Shown: positions 674-10,755, numbered from the stretch's first letter. The stretch is 64,000 bases of DNA from Collinsella tanakaei (GCF_016902615.1 NZ_JACJMB010000011.1:1-64000); one strand, 5' to 3'. Notes: generated by a model not told the origin, from the sequence alone. Program-made: numbers and translations.

Positions 674-3522
<2,849 letters not shown>

Positions 3523-3701
3523 CCCCAGCATGTGAAATTGCCCGAGAGGTTTTTTACCTTACGGGCGCCTTACATAACCCTGCTCGTACGTTTACCGATG
3601 AGCCGATTGATCCCCTATAGCCTGTAGGTCTGTACCTTTTTGGTCCTCGACCCCGAAACTGCCGGATGTCCCTGCGCATCCTAATGGCAGAGAGGAAGGC
3701 C

Positions 3702-4445
3702 ATGGGATTGAGCAAAGACATCGGCGCGCGGGTGTGCGCCGTCAAGGGAGACGCACACAAAGCCGACGAGCTCGTGCGCGACTACCTGCCGTTCATAACG
3801 TCGGAGACCGCCAAGTTCATGGCGCGACGGCCCGTTGCGGGCGTCGATGACGAGTTGGGCATCGCCATGTTCGCATTTCATGAGGCAACGCAGGTGTACG
3901 ACCGGCAGCGCGGTGCGTTTTTGACCCTGGCGGCGCGCATGATACGCAACCGGCTGATCGACTATCGGCGGCGCGAGGCGCGCCACACCCGCGTGGTGTC
4001 GTTGGACGCGCCTCAGTTTGAGCAGGATGGCGACGAGAACAAGACGCTGCTCGACCAGGTGGATTCCGGGCATGACGAAATCGGCGAGCGCCACACGCGC
4101 GCTGCCACCCGGACCGAAATCGAGGAGTTCACGCGCATGCTCGCGTCGTTCGAAGTCAAGCTCACCGATGTCGCCGAGAATTGCCCCAAGCAGGAGCGGA
4201 CGCTCGACGCGTGCCGTCGCGCCTTGACGTATGCACGCGAGCACCGCGACATGCTCGACCGGCTGGAGCGGACCGGAAAGCTCCCGATCTCCGACTTGGC
4301 GGAAGGCAGCGGCGTGGAGCGCAAAACGCTTGAACGCCACCGCAAGTATCTGGTCGCGTTGCTGCTGGCGTATACGAACGGGTTCGAAATCATCCGTGGC
4401 CACCTCTGCAGACTCGATGCACATCAGGGGGTCGATGCGCGATGA
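3702..4445 (+). CDS. sigI: SigI-family RNA polymerase sigma factor
   Basis: A 247-residue sigma factor of the SigI group, which in Bacillus and Clostridium controls heat, cell-wall or polysaccharide-related genes. Region 2 is recognisable around residues 20-95, with an FAFHEA..V.D core followed by GAFLTLAARMIRNRLIDYRR, the helix that melts the -10 element. The C-terminal half (about 190-235) holds the region-4-like HTH, ISDLAEGSGVERKTLERH, typical of SigI. The ATG at 3702 is preferred over the one at 3666 because AGAGGAAGG lies at good distance. Its stop overlaps the next start (ATGA), so it is translationally coupled to an RsgI-type anti-sigma factor, the usual partner. The identification as SigI rests on sequence plus this partner; target genes are unknown. 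Confidence 0.88.
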   Translation: MGLSKDIGARVCAVKGDAHKADELVRDYLPFITSETAKFMARRPVAGVDDELGIAMFAFHEATQVYDRQRGAFLTLAARMIRNRLIDYRRREARHTRVVSLDAPQFEQDGDENKTLLDQVDSGHDEIGERHTRAATRTEIEEFTRMLASFEVKLTDVAENCPKQERTLDACRRALTYAREHRDMLDRLERTGKLPISDLAEGSGVERKTLERHRKYLVALLLAYTNGFEIIRGHLCRLDAHQGVDAR

Positions 4446-5296
4446 AGTATTTGGTGATGGAATGCGCGACGAGTTTTGCGGTCGTGCTCGACCAGGAGGG
4501 GCGCTTCTACACGGTGCCCAACTTGGGTTATGCCGTGGGCGACGTTTTGGACGAGGTGTATCTGTGCGACGCCGCGGACCATCTGTCTGTTGTTGACGAT
4601 GCACCCGCGCACAAGCGGCCCGGTCGACTCGTGCGCTGGTTTGCGGCCGCTGCGTGCCTTATCGCGGTGGCGGTTGGCGGCTTTGCGTTTTGGCAGACGC
4701 CCATCGGTGCCGTCCGCATGCGCATCAACCCCGAAGTGCGCATGGACGTCAACCGCTTCGACCGCGTGGTGGGCATCGAGGGTGAAAACGATGACGGTGT
4801 CGAGCTCATCGAGGGGTACCAAGCGTACGGCAAGGATATCGAGACGGTGACCAATGATCTTGCGGACCGTTCCCGCAAACAGCGCTATCTCGATCCCGGA
4901 GACACGATTGTCATCGATGCCGATTCCGACGATGAGGCGTGGACCTCGGAGGTTGAGGGGCGCATCGTCGGTGAGCTCGAGAAATACATGGGCGGCGAGG
5001 TGATTGTCATCACGGCGCAGGATGCTGCCCGCGCTGCGGAAGCGCAAGAAGCGCCGGAGGAAAGCGAACGCGCGGTTCCGGCGGAGCAGGACGTGCCTGC
5101 GGGGGATGCAGCGGGCAGTGGGAGCCAGCCTGCCGCAGCATCGACTTCCACCGCAGATGTCCTTCCGGTGCCAGAAGTCCCGGCAGACCCGGGTGTTCCG
5201 GCTTTGGAGGACGATGATGATGGCGATGACGACGACTATGAAGACGATGACGACGATGGCGACGACTACGACGACGATGCTGATGACGATGACTGA
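4442..5296 (+). CDS. rsgI: RsgI-type anti-sigma factor with acidic C-terminal tail
   Basis: A 284-residue single-pass membrane protein that overlaps sigI by four bases. Residues 1-45 match the cytoplasmic RsgI N-terminal domain, which binds and silences SigI. One transmembrane helix lies near residues 60-82 (LVRWFAAAACLIAVAVGGFA). The extracellular part starts with INPEVRMDVNRFDRVVGIEG, the conserved RsgI motif, through about residue 190. It is followed by a Glu/Ala/Pro-rich linker and a tail of almost only Asp with a few Gly, Tyr and Glu (last ~30 residues). Clostridial RsgI proteins end in carbohydrate-binding or other sensor modules. Here the sensor position is taken by the poly-Asp tail, which could bind divalent cations or cationic wall components (inference). 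The same motif and tail recur in the next gene. Confidence 0.85.
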   Translation: MKYLVMECATSFAVVLDQEGRFYTVPNLGYAVGDVLDEVYLCDAADHLSVVDDAPAHKRPGRLVRWFAAAACLIAVAVGGFAFWQTPIGAVRMRINPEVRMDVNRFDRVVGIEGENDDGVELIEGYQAYGKDIETVTNDLADRSRKQRYLDPGDTIVIDADSDDEAWTSEVEGRIVGELEKYMGGEVIVITAQDAARAAEAQEAPEESERAVPAEQDVPAGDAAGSGSQPAAASTSTADVLPVPEVPADPGVPALEDDDDGDDDDYEDDDDDGDDYDDDADDDD

Positions 5297-5383
5297 GCGC
5301 ATGCAAATCGGGCCGTTCCTGCCTGAGCTCTGCGTTCCCTTTCGGCTGTGACCAGCAAAAACGCTACTCGCTGGACGGTTCCC

Positions 5384-5402
5384 AACTTTTCTCAAAAAAG
5401 TT
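5384..5402 (+). terminator. weak A/T hairpin between rsgI and the lipoprotein gene
   Basis: AACTTTT (5384-5390) pairs with AAAAGTT (5396-5402), followed by TTT. The stem is A/T-only and weak, but it lies about 90 bp after rsgI and about 100 bp before the next start. It may partly separate the two transcription units. Confidence 0.3.
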
Positions 5403-5499
5403 TTTGCTCCGACCCCGGTTTTATACCATGCCCATCCGCACCCTAACACTGCAAGGTAAATCGGTTCAAAGATAACCGCACATACAAAGGAGGCAAACG

Positions 5500-6393
5500 A
5501 TGAAGCGCATGAACAGGAAGGCTCTGGTTGCTGGTTTGGGTATGAGCATGGTGTTGGCGGCGGCGCTGAGTGGGTGCGGCGGTACCGGACAGACGACGGC
5601 CGCTGTGAGCGTCCCGAGCGAAGCGGCGTCCGAGGTGGCGGGCTATGTGCTGATGAGCGTGAACCCCGAGATCGAGCTCTCCTACGACGGTGAAGGCAAC
5701 GTCGTGGAGCTCGAGGGCGCCAACGATGATGGTCGGAGCGTTCTTGCCGACTACGACGACTACCGTGGCCGTCCTGCCGACGAGGTCATGAGCGAACTCG
5801 TCCGCGAGATCGATGCGGACGGGTACTTCGCCGGCGGCGTTGGCGGGCGTGAAAAGAACATCGTCCTGAAGGTTGCCGAGGGCTCAACGTATCCGAGCGA
5901 TGACTTTATGGAGCGCATTGCCGAGAGCGTTAAGGTCACGGCAGGGGAGTGCGGCCTTGGCTCGGGCGCCTATGCGGTGGGCACCGACAGGCTGGACGAC
6001 GCCGGCCTCATCGGCATCGACGCCGCCAAGGAGATCGTGCTTGGGCAACTTGGCATCGACCCTGCGACCGCAAGGTTCAACGATCATGAGTATGAGCTCG
6101 ATGACGGAGTGTACGAGCTTGAGTTCGTGGCAGGTGGCGTTGAGTACGACTACGAGGTCGACGCGCGCACCGGCAAGGTGCTCGAGGCCGATTTCGAGCG
6201 CAACGACGATTGGGACGACCGCGAGCTGTGGGATGACGATGACGACGCCGACGACTGGGCCGATGACGCTGACGATCGCGACGATTGGGATGACCACGAC
6301 GATCGTGATGACGATCATGACGACGACTGGGACGACGGCGTCGACGATCGCGATGATGATCACGCTGACTGGGACGATCGCGACGACGACTAA
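5500..6393 (+). CDS. lipoprotein with RsgI-like motif, PEPSY domain and poly-Asp tail
   Basis: A 297-residue exported protein. Start ATG at 5500 follows AAAGGAGG. The signal peptide ends in a lipobox LSGC with Cys26, so it should be lipid-anchored outside the membrane. Residues ~50-100 contain VNPEIELSYDGEGNVVELEG and an NDDG..VL.DYDDYRG continuation that is clearly related to the extracellular RsgI motif of the preceding gene. Residues ~175-230 form a PEPSY-type domain (AKEIVLGQLGID ... VDARTGKVLEADFE). From about residue 233 to the end the chain is almost entirely Asp, with scattered Trp, His and Arg. The sigI-rsgI-lipoprotein order suggests it is a SigI target and possibly a decoy or ligand carrier for RsgI signalling. 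That role is inference; no enzymatic motif is visible. Confidence 0.8.
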   Translation: MKRMNRKALVAGLGMSMVLAAALSGCGGTGQTTAAVSVPSEAASEVAGYVLMSVNPEIELSYDGEGNVVELEGANDDGRSVLADYDDYRGRPADEVMSELVREIDADGYFAGGVGGREKNIVLKVAEGSTYPSDDFMERIAESVKVTAGECGLGSGAYAVGTDRLDDAGLIGIDAAKEIVLGQLGIDPATARFNDHEYELDDGVYELEFVAGGVEYDYEVDARTGKVLEADFERNDDWDDRELWDDDDDADDWADDADDRDDWDDHDDRDDDHDDDWDDGVDDRDDDHADWDDRDDD

Positions 6394-6538: not shown

Positions 6539-7018
6539 ATGGAAGAGCTTCCGTTCGGGTTTTCGCTCACGGATTTCCACATGCAGGTCAGCATGATGTT
6601 TCATCTCATGAGGGGCTGCAACCATCCGCACCTGCCCGCTTTGGGGCTGGGGCCAGGTCAGCCGCGCATGTTGTCCTACCTTGCCGTGCACGGCAGAAGC
6701 AGCCAGCGTGACCTGGCACGGTATTTCTCCGTCGACCCGGCTGCCGTCTCGCGGATGATGGATGCGCTGTGCCGCGCGGGCTTCGTGCGTATCGTTCCCG
6801 GAGAAGATCGCCGCCGTCGCACCGTTGAGCTCACCCAGAAGGGCGAGGAGACCGTGCGCGCATGGGACCGCGTCTGCGCCGGCACCGACGAGGTCATGCT
6901 CGCAGGTCTTTCCGACGCCGAGCGCGCGCAGCTCCATGATTTGCTCGATCGCGTACAGGCGAACATGCGGGCGCATCTCGCGCAGGACAGCGAATCGGAA
7001 GAGGTGCGCGATGAGTGA
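6539..7018 (+). CDS. MarR-family transcriptional repressor
   Basis: A 159-residue winged-helix protein. The core HTH is RSSQRDLARYFSVDPAAVSR (about residues 50-69) and the wing carries the typical PGEDRRRRTVELTQKG. Flanking helices give the usual dimerisation region. The ATG at 6539 sits after AAGGAG that is itself part of the operator. Its stop codon lies eight bases inside the next gene, an ABC exporter subunit. This coupling means it almost certainly senses a substrate or stress relieved by that exporter. MarR proteins respond to phenolics, drugs or oxidants; which ligand applies here is not visible, and no redox-type Cys stands out. Confidence 0.9.
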   Translation: MEELPFGFSLTDFHMQVSMMFHLMRGCNHPHLPALGLGPGQPRMLSYLAVHGRSSQRDLARYFSVDPAAVSRMMDALCRAGFVRIVPGEDRRRRTVELTQKGEETVRAWDRVCAGTDEVMLAGLSDAERAQLHDLLDRVQANMRAHLAQDSESEEVRDE

Positions 7019-8807
7019 CCTCAAGCGACTGCTTTCGTATTTGGGCTCGTATCGGCGCGACGCCGTGCTCGGCGCCATCGCGGTTGCGCTCGAGACCTCC
7101 ATCGAGCTTATCATCCCGCTGCTCATGGCCCGTATCATCGACGAGGGCATCGTCCAGCGGGACTTCCGGATTATCTTCAGCCAAGGTGCCCTCATGCTCG
7201 TGTGCGCCCTCGCGTCGCTCGGCCTCGGCCTGGCCTATGCGCGCTTCGCGGCGCGCGTCGCCATGGGGCTCGGCGCCAACCTGCGCCAGGCGGAGTACGA
7301 GAAGATCCAGACGTTCGCGTTCGGCAACATCGACCGCTACCAGACGTCATCGCTCGTCACGCGCCTGACGACCGACATCACGGTCATCCAGAACGCCATC
7401 TCAAGCGGTTTTCGCCCCATGGTGCGCGGTCCGGTGATCCTGCTCATGGGCCTTTTCTACGCCTGCAGCATGAATATGGAGCTCGCGGGCGTGTTCTTCG
7501 TCGTCCTGCCGGCGCTCGGCATCGCGCTCGGCCTGATTACCTGGCGCGTGCTGCCGCTCTATCGCACGCTGCAGGAGTCGATGGATGACCTGAACGGCGC
7601 GGTGCAGGAGGATCTCACCGCCATGCGCGCCGTGAAGGCCTATGTGCGCGAGGACCACGAGCGCAACGTGTTCGCCCGCGTGAACGGCGCGCTCGCCGGC
7701 CGCTCGACGCGCACGTTCTCCACCGCCGTGCTGAACCTGCCCGTGCACCAGCTGTCCATGTACACCACCGCCACGCTCGTGCTGTGGATCGGCGGCAACA
7801 TGATCATCGCCGGGCGCCTCACCGTGGGCGAGCTCACGAGCTTCATGAGCTATGTGCTGCAGATCATGAACTCGCTCATGATGATCTCGAACGTGTTTCT
7901 GCTGCTCACGCGCGCGCTCACGAGCGTGCGTCGCGTGGGCGAGGTGCTCGACGAGGAGCCGGAGCTCGCGCTGCCCGCGCCGGAGGAGGCCCTTCGCGAG
8001 GTGCCGGACGGCTCGATCGAGTTTCGCCAGGTGGACTTCAAGTACCGCGCGGACGCCGCGGCCAACGTGCTCGAGGGCGTCGACCTCTTCATTCCCGCGG
8101 GCTCGACGGTGGGCATCCTGGGCGGCACGGGTTCGGGCAAAAGCTCGCTCGTGCAGCTCATCTGCCGCCTGTACGACCCGAGCGCGGGCAGCGTGCTCGT
8201 GGGCGGTGCCGACGTGCGCTCCTACGACGTGGCGGCGCTGCGCGACGCCGTGGGCATCGTGCTCCAGAACAACGTGCTGTTCTCCGGTACCATCCGCGAG
8301 AACCTGAAGTGGGGAAATCCCGACGCGACCGATGAGGAGCTGCTCGCCGCCTGCAAGCTCGCATGCGCCGACGAGTTCTTGGACCGCATCGGCGGGCTCG
8401 ACGGCGAGCTCGGCCAGGGCGGCGCCGGCGTGTCCGGCGGCCAAAAGCAGCGCCTGTGCATCGCGCGCACGCTGCTCAAGCATCCCCGCATCATGATCTT
8501 CGACGACTCCACGAGCGCAGTCGACATGGCGACCGACGCGAAGATCCGCGCGAACCTCACCACCTTGGTGGACGTGACCTGCCTCATCATCGCCCAGCGC
8601 ATCACCTCCGTCATGGACGCCGACCTGATCGTCGTGCTGGACGACGGGCGCATCCACGCCCTCGGCACGCATGACGAGCTGCTGGCAGGTGACAGCATCT
8701 ACCAGGAGATCTACGCATCGCAGATGGAGCGGGCCCAGGAGGCGACGGCAGCCGGTGGCGCCTTGGGTGCACCTGCCGGGAAGGGAGGTGAGCGCGATGG
8801 CCGCTAA
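7011..8807 (+). CDS. ABC exporter half-transporter, degenerate-site subunit
   Basis: A 598-residue fused permease-ATPase: six membrane helices (about 1-300) and a C-terminal nucleotide-binding domain. Walker A is GGTGSGKSS (about residue 370) and the signature is VSGGQKQRL (about 473). Walker B ends FDDSTSAVD, with Asp where the catalytic Glu should be, and the switch region reads IAQRITSV, with Gln in place of His. These two changes are the hallmark of the degenerate ATP site in heterodimeric exporters such as TM287/288 and BmrCD. The true start is ATG 7011, overlapping marR. It overlaps the next gene by 11 bases, so the two subunits are made together. Substrate unknown; multidrug or peptide export is most likely. 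Confidence 0.93.
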   Translation: MSDLKRLLSYLGSYRRDAVLGAIAVALETSIELIIPLLMARIIDEGIVQRDFRIIFSQGALMLVCALASLGLGLAYARFAARVAMGLGANLRQAEYEKIQTFAFGNIDRYQTSSLVTRLTTDITVIQNAISSGFRPMVRGPVILLMGLFYACSMNMELAGVFFVVLPALGIALGLITWRVLPLYRTLQESMDDLNGAVQEDLTAMRAVKAYVREDHERNVFARVNGALAGRSTRTFSTAVLNLPVHQLSMYTTATLVLWIGGNMIIAGRLTVGELTSFMSYVLQIMNSLMMISNVFLLLTRALTSVRRVGEVLDEEPELALPAPEEALREVPDGSIEFRQVDFKYRADAAANVLEGVDLFIPAGSTVGILGGTGSGKSSLVQLICRLYDPSAGSVLVGGADVRSYDVAALRDAVGIVLQNNVLFSGTIRENLKWGNPDATDEELLAACKLACADEFLDRIGGLDGELGQGGAGVSGGQKQRLCIARTLLKHPRIMIFDDSTSAVDMATDAKIRANLTTLVDVTCLIIAQRITSVMDADLIVVLDDGRIHALGTHDELLAGDSIYQEIYASQMERAQEATAAGGALGAPAGKGGERDGR

Positions 8808-10755
8808 GACGACGGCGCGTGCGCGCCCGAAGAACCTGCGCCACACCCTGGCGCGCCTGCTCGCCTACATGGGGCATGCGAAGATTTCGCTGGCGGTGGT
8901 GGCCGTCCTCGTGTCCATCTCCGCGGTTGCGAACCTCGTGGGCACCTACATGGTGCGCCCGGTGGTGAACGCCCTCGAGCAGGGGCACGCCGAGCAGCTG
9001 CCTGCGCTCTGCGCCTTCACGGCCGGCGTCTACGCCCTTGGCGTTCTGAGCGCGCTCGGCTACACCCAGACGATGGTGCGCGCCGCCCAGAAGGTGGTCT
9101 ACGACATCCGTCGCGACCTGTTCTCGCACATCCAGCGCCTGCCGCTGTCGTATTTCGACCGCACGCGCACCGGCGACGTCATGAGCTTTTTCACCAACGA
9201 TGTGGATACCGTGGCCGAGGCGCTCAACAACAGCTTCGCGAACCTCATCCAAGCATCCATCCAGATGGTGGGCACGATGGTGGTGCTTTTCATCCTGAAC
9301 TGGCAGCTCACGCTCATCACCGTGGCGTGCGATCTCATCATCGCCCTCTACATCAAGTACTCCGGCAGCCGCAGCGGCCGCTTCTTCGCGAAGCAGCAAA
9401 ACGCGCTCGGCGCGCTCGACGGCTACGTGGAGGAGATGGTGTCCGGTCAGAAGGTCGTGAAGGTGTTCAACCACGAGGCGGCCAACGTCGCCGAGTTCTT
9501 CGAGCGCAACGACGAGCTGCGCGCCGCGGGCACCTCGGCGCAGGCCTATGCGGCCACGATGGTGCCGGCGACCGTGTGCATCGGGTATGCGAACTACGCG
9601 ATCGTGGCGGTCGTGGGGGCGTTGCTCGCCATCAACGGGATGGTCGACGTGGGCGCGCTGGCGAGCTACGTGGTGTTCGTCCGTCAGGCGGCCATGCCCA
9701 TCAACCAGTTCACGCAGCTCGGGAACTTCCTGCTGAACGCCCTGGCGGGCGCGGAGCGCCTCTTCGGCGCCATGGAGCTCGAGCCCGAGGTGGATGCGGG
9801 CACGGTGACGCTCGAGCGGACCGGCGAGCGCAGCTGGGCTTGGAAGGTGCCCGACGGCATGGGAATCGGCGCCTATGGCAAGCTGGTCGCCCAGGACGCC
9901 TCCGCATGCAGCGAGGCGGTGCGCGGCGGCGAGGACGTGCCCGCACGCGCGTCGGGTGCCTGTGCGACCGAGACGGTGCGCGGCGCGGACGGCACGATGC
10001 TCGCCTGCGGGCGCATCCCGCTGCGCGGCGACGTGCGCTTCCACGACGTCGACTTCGGCTACGTGCCGGGACATCTCGTGCTGGAGAACCTCAACCTGTT
10101 CGCCAAACCGGGCCAGAAGATCGCCTTCGTGGGATCGACGGGCGCGGGCAAGACGACCATCACGAACCTCATCAACCGCTTCTACGAGATCGACGGCGGC
10201 GAGATCACCTACGACGGCATCGACGTGCGCAACATCGCCAAGAGCGACCTGCGCCGCTCGCTCGGCATCGTGCTGCAGGATACGCACCTGTTCACCGGCA
10301 CGATCGCGGACAACATCCGCTTCGGCAAGCTCGACGCTACCGATGAGGAGGTGCGCGCGGCGGCTGAGGCGGCCTGTGCCGACTCGTTCATCAGGCGCCT
10401 GCCGGAAGGCTACGACACGATGGTGACATCCGACGGCGCGAACCTCTCGCAGGGCCAGCGGCAGCTGCTCGCCATCGCGCGCGTGGCCGTGGCCGACCCG
10501 CCGGTCCTCATCCTGGACGAGGCGACCTCGAGCATCGATACGCGTACCGAGAAGCTCATCGAGCGCGGAATGGACCGCATCATGGAGGGGCGCACGACGT
10601 TCATGATCGCGCATCGCCTGTCGACCGTGCGCAACGCCGACGCCATCATGGTGCTCGAGCACGGCAAGATCATCGAACGCGGCACCCACGAGCAGCTGCT
10701 CGCGCTGCACGGCGAGTACTGGCAGCTCTACCAGGGATTGAAGGAGCTCGATTAG
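8797..10755 (+). CDS. ABC exporter half-transporter, catalytic-site subunit
   Basis: The 652-residue partner of the preceding subunit, starting at ATG 8797 after AAGGGAGGTG. It has a six-helix permease domain and an ATPase domain with canonical residues: Walker A GSTGAGKTT (about 447), signature LSQGQRQ (about 550), Walker B LILDEATSSID with the catalytic Glu, and switch IAHRLSTV. It supplies the working catalytic Glu and His that its partner lacks. Between the two domains (about residues 335-410) is an unusual Ala/Gly/Asp-rich insertion, containing AWKVPDGMGIGAYG, not normally seen in such linkers. A strong terminator follows directly, closing a three-gene marR-ABC-ABC operon. Confidence 0.93.
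   Translation: MAAKTTARARPKNLRHTLARLLAYMGHAKISLAVVAVLVSISAVANLVGTYMVRPVVNALEQGHAEQLPALCAFTAGVYALGVLSALGYTQTMVRAAQKVVYDIRRDLFSHIQRLPLSYFDRTRTGDVMSFFTNDVDTVAEALNNSFANLIQASIQMVGTMVVLFILNWQLTLITVACDLIIALYIKYSGSRSGRFFAKQQNALGALDGYVEEMVSGQKVVKVFNHEAANVAEFFERNDELRAAGTSAQAYAATMVPATVCIGYANYAIVAVVGALLAINGMVDVGALASYVVFVRQAAMPINQFTQLGNFLLNALAGAERLFGAMELEPEVDAGTVTLERTGERSWAWKVPDGMGIGAYGKLVAQDASACSEAVRGGEDVPARASGACATETVRGADGTMLACGRIPLRGDVRFHDVDFGYVPGHLVLENLNLFAKPGQKIAFVGSTGAGKTTITNLINRFYEIDGGEITYDGIDVRNIAKSDLRRSLGIVLQDTHLFTGTIADNIRFGKLDATDEEVRAAAEAACADSFIRRLPEGYDTMVTSDGANLSQGQRQLLAIARVAVADPPVLILDEATSSIDTRTEKLIERGMDRIMEGRTTFMIAHRLSTVRNADAIMVLEHGKIIERGTHEQLLALHGEYWQLYQGLKELD

Follow-up and report, generated by a model that had tools for sequence, protein, structure and literature searches.

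SigI-RsgI Systems Related to the Collinsella Locus

The closest described counterparts of the locus analyzed here are the SigI-RsgI systems of Bacillus subtilis and Clostridium thermocellum. In C. thermocellum, the periplasmic domains of the RsgI proteins self-cleave, and RsgI is subject to regulated intramembrane proteolysis with a site-2 protease and ClpXP (PMC12203970). The C termini of these proteins mostly carry carbohydrate-binding or enzyme modules (RsgI7 and RsgI8 being unknown in this respect), the system serves biomass sensing, and its targets are cellulosomal. The RsgI of B. subtilis has a cytosolic N terminus, one transmembrane (TM) helix, a SEAL domain (8t9n), and a disordered tail without a binding module, and its SigI has an autoregulatory promoter. 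The SigI regulon of that organism includes mreBH, lytE, and bcrC (PMC7478892). The locus of interest is a trio of genes, sigI, rsgI, and a gene for a lipoprotein, in a 64,000-nucleotide stretch of DNA from Collinsella tanakaei (GCF_016902615.1 NZ_JACJMB010000011.1:1-64000; the whole stretch is referred to as the window). It resembles the B. subtilis system in its SigI family sigma factor, in the architecture and SEAL fold of RsgI, and in a predicted autoregulatory SigI-type promoter with the same spacing, and the C. thermocellum systems in its SigI-RsgI operon, in an RsgI domain of the type that autocleaves at Asn-Pro (8hep, 8heq, 8her, and 8u9o), and in its SigI promoters, which have a CGWA -10 element in C. 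thermocellum. In contrast to both, it includes a copy of the sensor domain on a lipoprotein; C. thermocellum has none, and the B. subtilis papers compared neither describe a SEAL lipoprotein as a partner nor report the RsgI tail as poly-Asp. The B. subtilis -10 element is CGAA, whereas that of the window is CGCA.

All parts of the trio belong to known families, and the type of circuit, SigI-RsgI, is already known. The copy of the sensor on a lipoprotein predicted to depend on SigI, the matched tails of the two exported proteins, and the link to CotH and VTC proteins appear to be undescribed; a literature search returned no paper combining RsgI with PepSY, a domain also present in the lipoprotein, but this is a weak result because subscription papers were largely missing. 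We interpret the trio as a self-contained SigI-RsgI circuit with an output, the lipoprotein, that is made of the sensor's own outside parts and closes a homeostatic loop, and we assign this interpretation a probability of roughly 0.55. Homeostasis is the simplest reading because the lipoprotein bears the SEAL domain and the tail type of the sensor itself.

RsgI and Lipoprotein Ectodomains

The ectodomains of RsgI and the lipoprotein are homologous and have one RsgI_M/SEAL fold. Profiles of the two families align with an E value of 1.5e-13 (hhalign), and the models of the RsgI ectodomain and the lipoprotein, with predicted local distance difference test (pLDDT) scores of 94.5 and 85.6, both have B. 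subtilis RsgI (8t9n_B) as the best match in the PDB (E values of 7.9e-7 and 8e-6, respectively), with periplasmic domains of C. thermocellum RsgI as the next-best structural matches. The lipoprotein model superimposes on 8t9n_B with a Z score of 14.4 and a root mean square deviation of 2.2 Å over 107 residues (VIA-align), and its PepSY part resembles YpeB (5boi; Z score of 8.7). The original prediction for this DNA, made from the sequence alone, stated that the lipoprotein repeats the extracellular motif of RsgI and posed structural similarity of the two motifs as a test; the profile comparison bears out the repeat, and the models show a single fold that is closest to the solved RsgI domains.

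An Asn-Pro dipeptide is present at the end of strand 1 in 51/51 RsgI proteins and 51/51 lipoproteins. Chain B of 8hep starts at the Pro that aligns with the Pro of this dipeptide in the window RsgI, and, by analogy with the C. thermocellum domains, self-cleavage at Asn-Pro is predicted for both RsgI and the lipoprotein.

Paired Promoters and the Predicted Regulon

Predicted SigI-type promoters precede sigI-rsgI and the lipoprotein gene (Table I), and the spacing of their elements equals that of the Bacillales SigI consensus, ACCCCC--AA-N15-CGAA (PMC4711584). The genome that contains the window (2.45 Mb) has exactly two copies of a longer form of the motif. The strict motif, ACCCC-N19/20-CG[CT]A, was sought within 230 bases upstream of each gene of the trio in 51 genomes, with the expectation taken from shuffles. 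It preceded the lipoprotein gene in 50 genomes (0.16 expected), sigI in 43 (0.28 expected; one-base variants explain most of the misses), and rsgI in none. Spacers vary between genomes, and the -35 and -10 elements are retained; the promoter stays with the lipoprotein gene even where this gene is divergent from sigI (locus L186) or 1.4 kb from rsgI (L182). No sigma-70 promoters were found at the two predicted SigI sites. In about 30 module-bearing genomes of Coriobacteriia, these two sites are the only ones at which the strict motif recurs, hits in lepB and a few scattered others aside. Matches in three genomes (G016, G023, and G024) were rejected as targets since they fall within lepB, at the beginning of its coding sequence, and a match on contig C2 of the window genome was rejected since it lies downstream of a cstA-like gene. 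Because the promoter is conserved upstream of both the lipoprotein gene and sigI and recurs little elsewhere, control of the lipoprotein gene by SigI, as originally proposed, is strongly predicted, with SigI dependence itself still a prediction. The regulon may be wider. Almost all Coriobacteriia have CGCA as the -10 element, as opposed to CGTA in Lachnospiraceae and CGAA in Bacillales, and a lineage-specific shift in promoter recognition by SigI is possible.

The breadth of the regulon bears on whether the Collinsella SigI is an ordinary wall-stress sigma factor that controls many envelope genes, as in B. subtilis with its broader regulon, with the lipoprotein as one target among many and its tail as a generic disordered spacer. 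The disordered region of B. subtilis RsgI has been postulated to sense wall integrity (PMC10128001), and the strict motif would miss divergent promoters, both in keeping with such a role; however, the module-bearing Coriobacteriia genomes have no further recurring strict site except that inside the lepB coding sequence, and we consider the wall-stress explanation unlikely.

The paired promoters would also suit a lipoprotein that is purely a decoy and acts only to shut SigI off, either by titrating the ligand or by pairing with the SEAL domain of RsgI, so that induction is transient. Such a protein would be expected to have what is seen here: the SEAL domain and tail type of RsgI, the promoter of sigI, and a strict motif that marks no further recurring target in Coriobacteriia. 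We give the decoy only a small chance, because a regulon limited to the sigma and anti-sigma factors plus an off-switch would lack any output and because the lipoprotein gene of Lachnospiraceae heads a CotH operon, usually with VTC and DUF4956 genes, that looks like an effector operon; the PepSY domain is, in addition, extra and dispensable. The original prediction also allowed that the lipoprotein might be a co-sensor and that the tails might respond to divalent cations or cationic wall polymers; both are conjectures.

Covariation of the C-terminal Tails

The tails of RsgI and the lipoprotein change together. In most Coriobacteriia, both proteins end in poly-Asp; in genus g22, both have tails of the GNSGYDD type; and in a group of Lachnospiraceae, tail motifs of the DTDYGPNNDGVTDY type are long on the lipoprotein and shorter on RsgI. 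The Asp-rich tails that had been noted on both exported proteins are confirmed in the window, at 79% Asp in RsgI and 63% in the lipoprotein, but are not general, the GNSGYDD and DTDYGPNNDGVTDY types replacing them in relatives. Distances between RsgI tails correlate with those between lipoprotein tails with a Mantel r of 0.71 and a partial r of 0.58 after the removal of SigI distance, and 0/5000 permutations reach either value. Tail type changes at several places on the SigI tree.

Asp-rich repeats expand easily and tail types follow lineages, so that the match might be a coincidence in which slippage lengthens both low-complexity tails under the same genome composition. This is quite improbable given that poly-Asp occurs alike in the G+C-rich Coriobacteriia and the A+T-rich Lachnospiraceae, that the match survives the removal of SigI distance, and that it has changed several times on the SigI tree.

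Proposed Mechanism

In the homeostatic circuit that we favor, RsgI would hold SigI at the membrane, and its outer part would comprise a SEAL domain that cleaves itself, a linker rich in Pro and Ala, and a disordered, anionic tail. On the model of described RsgI signaling, force, a ligand, or an alteration of the wall acting on this tail might pull the pre-cleaved SEAL strand apart, after which intramembrane and cytosolic proteolysis would destroy RsgI and release SigI. The freed SigI would then transcribe sigI-rsgI and, from the second matching promoter, the lipoprotein gene. As the lipoprotein would present this SEAL domain and a tail of this type from a lipid anchor, SigI could in this way set the number of such tails between the membrane and the wall, and these tails would act on whatever RsgI senses, by restoring it or by competing for it, closing the loop. 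The homology and fold of the ectodomains, the conserved Asn-Pro, the gene order, the paired promoters, the restriction of the strict motif, and the covariation of the tails are computational observations; cleavage, proteolysis, the signal, and the function of the tails are the hypothetical parts of the scheme.

Several points weigh against this interpretation. The feedback from the lipoprotein to RsgI is something that we infer. A relaxed form of the motif adds four sites in the window genome, and the claim of a narrow regulon depends on the strict form, which divergent promoters would escape. The Mantel permutations remove phylogeny only in part, and low-complexity tails could drift in parallel through a common mutational bias.

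Association with CotH, VTC, and DUF4956

In 11 loci of Lachnospiraceae (L177 and L179-L188), a CotH gene follows the lipoprotein gene, and in 9 of these the genes for VTC, a polyphosphate polymerase-like protein, and for DUF4956 lie between the two. The start of the VTC gene appears to overlap the stop of the lipoprotein gene in the Lachnospiraceae loci examined. Ser and Thr make up a fraction of 0.12-0.27 of the lipoprotein tail where the Lachnospiraceae operon contains CotH (n = 11), as compared with 0-0.03 where it does not (n = 5), and the RsgI tails shift likewise. In 15 genomes of Coriobacteriia (L238-L252), a paralogous SEAL-tail protein that lacks PepSY precedes a VTC-DUF4956-CotH cassette; no SigI-type promoter was found before the gene for this paralogue. 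Some of these paralogues seem to have lost the lipobox Cys and may be TM-anchored. CotH is present in 4/5 of the module-bearing genomes of g22, whose tails are rich in Ser and Tyr; at E <= 1e-8, none was found in the window genome, which is 99.96% complete, and none was detected in the other poly-Asp Collinsella. Among the poly-Asp genomes of g13, a genus of another family in the same order, only G048 has a cassette of this kind. Proteins of about 600 residues that seem to belong to a different CotH subfamily are encoded near VTC in two further contigs from other Coriobacteriia, G302:C10 (L256, which also has DUF4956) and G018:C5 (L257).

Two described systems have parts of this arrangement. 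In B. subtilis, CotH polyphosphorylates the low-complexity Ser-rich repeats of CotB (PMC7821199), and the CotB-CotG-CotH system resembles the Lachnospiraceae operons in having a low-complexity repeat tail beside the gene for a CotH kinase. It differs in belonging to the spore coat, in having Ser/Lys/Arg repeats, and in lacking both a SEAL domain and SigI, and, unlike it, the window genome has no detected CotH. CotH, a polyphosphate polymerase, and DUF4956 are encoded by accessory genes of Gram-positive Pel loci (PMC7112168), and the same three are grouped in Lachnospiraceae downstream of the SEAL lipoprotein gene and in Coriobacteriia downstream of its paralogue; no pel genes were recognized by eye in the open reading frames (ORFs) read beside the Lachnospiraceae cassette, and here the cassette goes with a SEAL-tail protein, joined in Lachnospiraceae by sigI-rsgI.

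From these associations, we infer that the tails may be substrates of CotH, with poly-Asp as a kinase-free version. The Lachnospiraceae operon suggests a sigma factor-controlled surface phosphorylation system outside spores. Carried further, the tails would be polyanionic elements of the wall, either phosphorylated on Ser, Thr, or Tyr by CotH-type kinases or built as poly-Asp, as in the window genome, and RsgI would read the state of the tail through a matching tail of its own. The precedent of CotB, the complete separation by lipoprotein-tail Ser/Thr of Lachnospiraceae loci with and without CotH, the accompanying shift of the RsgI tails, the co-occurrence of CotH with Ser/Tyr tails in g22 and its apparent lack in poly-Asp Collinsella, and the cassette behind a SEAL paralogue with tails of this sort in 15 Coriobacteriia genomes are all consistent with this phosphorylation scheme. 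On the other hand, the repeats of CotB and CotG are basic, not acidic; the poly-Asp genome G048 has the cassette too; and the CotH comparison in poly-Asp Lachnospiraceae is confined to the operon. We regard the scheme as possible but doubtful.

Distribution of the Trio

The three-gene order, recurrence of which in Coriobacteriia had been proposed as a check, is found in 52 genomes and extends beyond that class. In addition to the window genome, these include another four from Collinsella, members of two more genera in its family, g13, and at least 19 genomes of Lachnospiraceae, so that gut bacteria from two phyla share the trio. None of the three refuting conditions set out with the original prediction spoke against it. 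Two strains of C. tanakaei carry it, and a relative represented by a Collinsella metagenome-assembled genome is 99% identical over the core of the lipoprotein. Its spread is patchy, with 32 full-length lipoproteins at E < 1e-90 among 398 genomes sampled across the Coriobacteriia. Distances between SigI, RsgI, and lipoprotein sequences correlate pairwise at 0.82-0.89, the parallel divergence expected if the trio is inherited as a unit. PepSY is absent from the lipoprotein in some Lachnospiraceae and, as judged from these sequences, is an optional part of it.

Organization of the Locus

The coordinates of the trio (Table I) agree with the earlier description of overlapping sigI and rsgI genes followed by a lipoprotein gene: the overlap is 4 bases, and about 200 bases separate rsgI from the lipoprotein gene. 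The PepSY domain ascribed to the lipoprotein is likewise found by Pfam. The ORF list sets the start of sigI at 3666, but because the ATG at that position is inside the predicted promoter, the gene probably starts at 3702 (after GAGAGGAAGG). The top NCBIfam models for the sigma factor are all SigI (E values of 6e-48 and weaker), at scores under their curated cut-offs, and Pfam Sigma70_r2 matches with 31.7 bits. RsgI_N is weak in the window RsgI, at 15-16 bits, under the cut-off of 25, and 7/7 aligned members match it (best E value of 5.6e-5). A Pro/Ala-rich stretch lies between the RsgI ectodomain and the tail.

TABLE I. Features of the sigI-rsgI-lipoprotein locus and of a second SEAL system. 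Positions are those of the window, the last row excepted.
Feature	Position	Strand	Evidence
Predicted SigI-type promoter of sigI-rsgI: -35 ACCCCG (3650-3655), 19-nt spacer, -10 CGCA (3675-3678), then TCCT	3650-3682	+	
sigI, RNA polymerase sigma-I factor, 247 residues	3702-4445	+	Sequence, family profiles
rsgI, membrane anti-sigma-I factor, 284 residues	4442-5296	+	Sequence, profiles, alignment
RsgI TM helix, approximately residues 67-84	4640-4693	+	Sequence, RsgI alignment
RsgI extracellular RsgI_M/SEAL domain, residues 91-202	4712-5047	+	Pfam 72 bits (cut-off 25.3), model
Asn96-Pro97, predicted RsgI autocleavage dipeptide	4727-4732	+	Conservation 51/51, PDB 8hep
RsgI Asp-rich C-terminal tail, residues 257-284 (28 residues, 79% Asp)	5210-5293	+	Composition
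Predicted SigI-type promoter of lipoprotein gene: ACCCCG (5412-5417), 19-nt spacer, CGCA (5437-5440), then CCCT	5412-5444	+	
SEAL-PepSY-tail lipoprotein gene, 297 residues	5500-6393	+	Sequence, Pfam, alignment
Lipobox LSGC, lipidation Cys26	5566-5577	+	Sequence; Cys26 invariant in lipoprotein alignment
Lipoprotein RsgI_M/SEAL domain, residues 48-135	5641-5904	+	Pfam 60.7 bits (cut-off 25.3), model, profile-profile
Asn55-Pro56, counterpart of RsgI autocleavage dipeptide	5662-5667	+	Conservation 51/51
PepSY domain, residues 173-229	6016-6186	+	Pfam 32.6 bits (cut-off 24), model versus YpeB 5boi
Lipoprotein Asp-rich C-terminal tail, residues 235-297 (63 residues, 63% Asp, net charge -36)	6202-6390	+	Composition
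Second SEAL system (L138), three genes	845-1519, 1615-2181, about 2180-3149	+	

The module is flanked in Collinsella and g22 by ligA on one side and a cluster of marR and ATP-binding cassette (ABC) transporter genes on the other (1138-3522 and 6542-10755 in the window), which suggests one ancestral position of the module in this family. These flanks are not kept in g13 or Lachnospiraceae, and no fourth gene is common to all of the modules.

A Second SEAL System and Wider Implications

The circuit bears on what RsgI-type anti-sigma factors without binding modules sense. Its likely regulon is tiny and adjacent, its target duplicates the sensor domain and has a covarying tail, and tail types differ among living relatives; because of these features, the sensing question is directly testable. 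A broader and rather speculative proposal, which we hold to be improbable as it stands, is a class of tail-matched envelope circuits, each comprising an autocleaving SEAL anti-sigma factor and its secreted target with the same low-complexity tail. The sensor would read the state of the polymer that its regulon supplies, as set by a CotH kinase and the VTC/DUF4956 pair or hard-wired as poly-Asp. If this were true, an unrelated extracytoplasmic function (ECF)/SEAL pair in the window genome would be a second instance of such a circuit.

This second SEAL system (G000:C89; L138) consists of an ECF-like sigma factor, an RsgI_M anti-sigma factor, and a secreted protein. The anti-sigma factor has RsgI_M and a Gly/His-rich tail, the adjoining secreted protein has DADGDGVCD repeats and a Gly/His-rich tail, and the two tails look alike. 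The system is also found at L007, L008, L009, L011, and L013, with the pairing extending to other families (L011 and L013).

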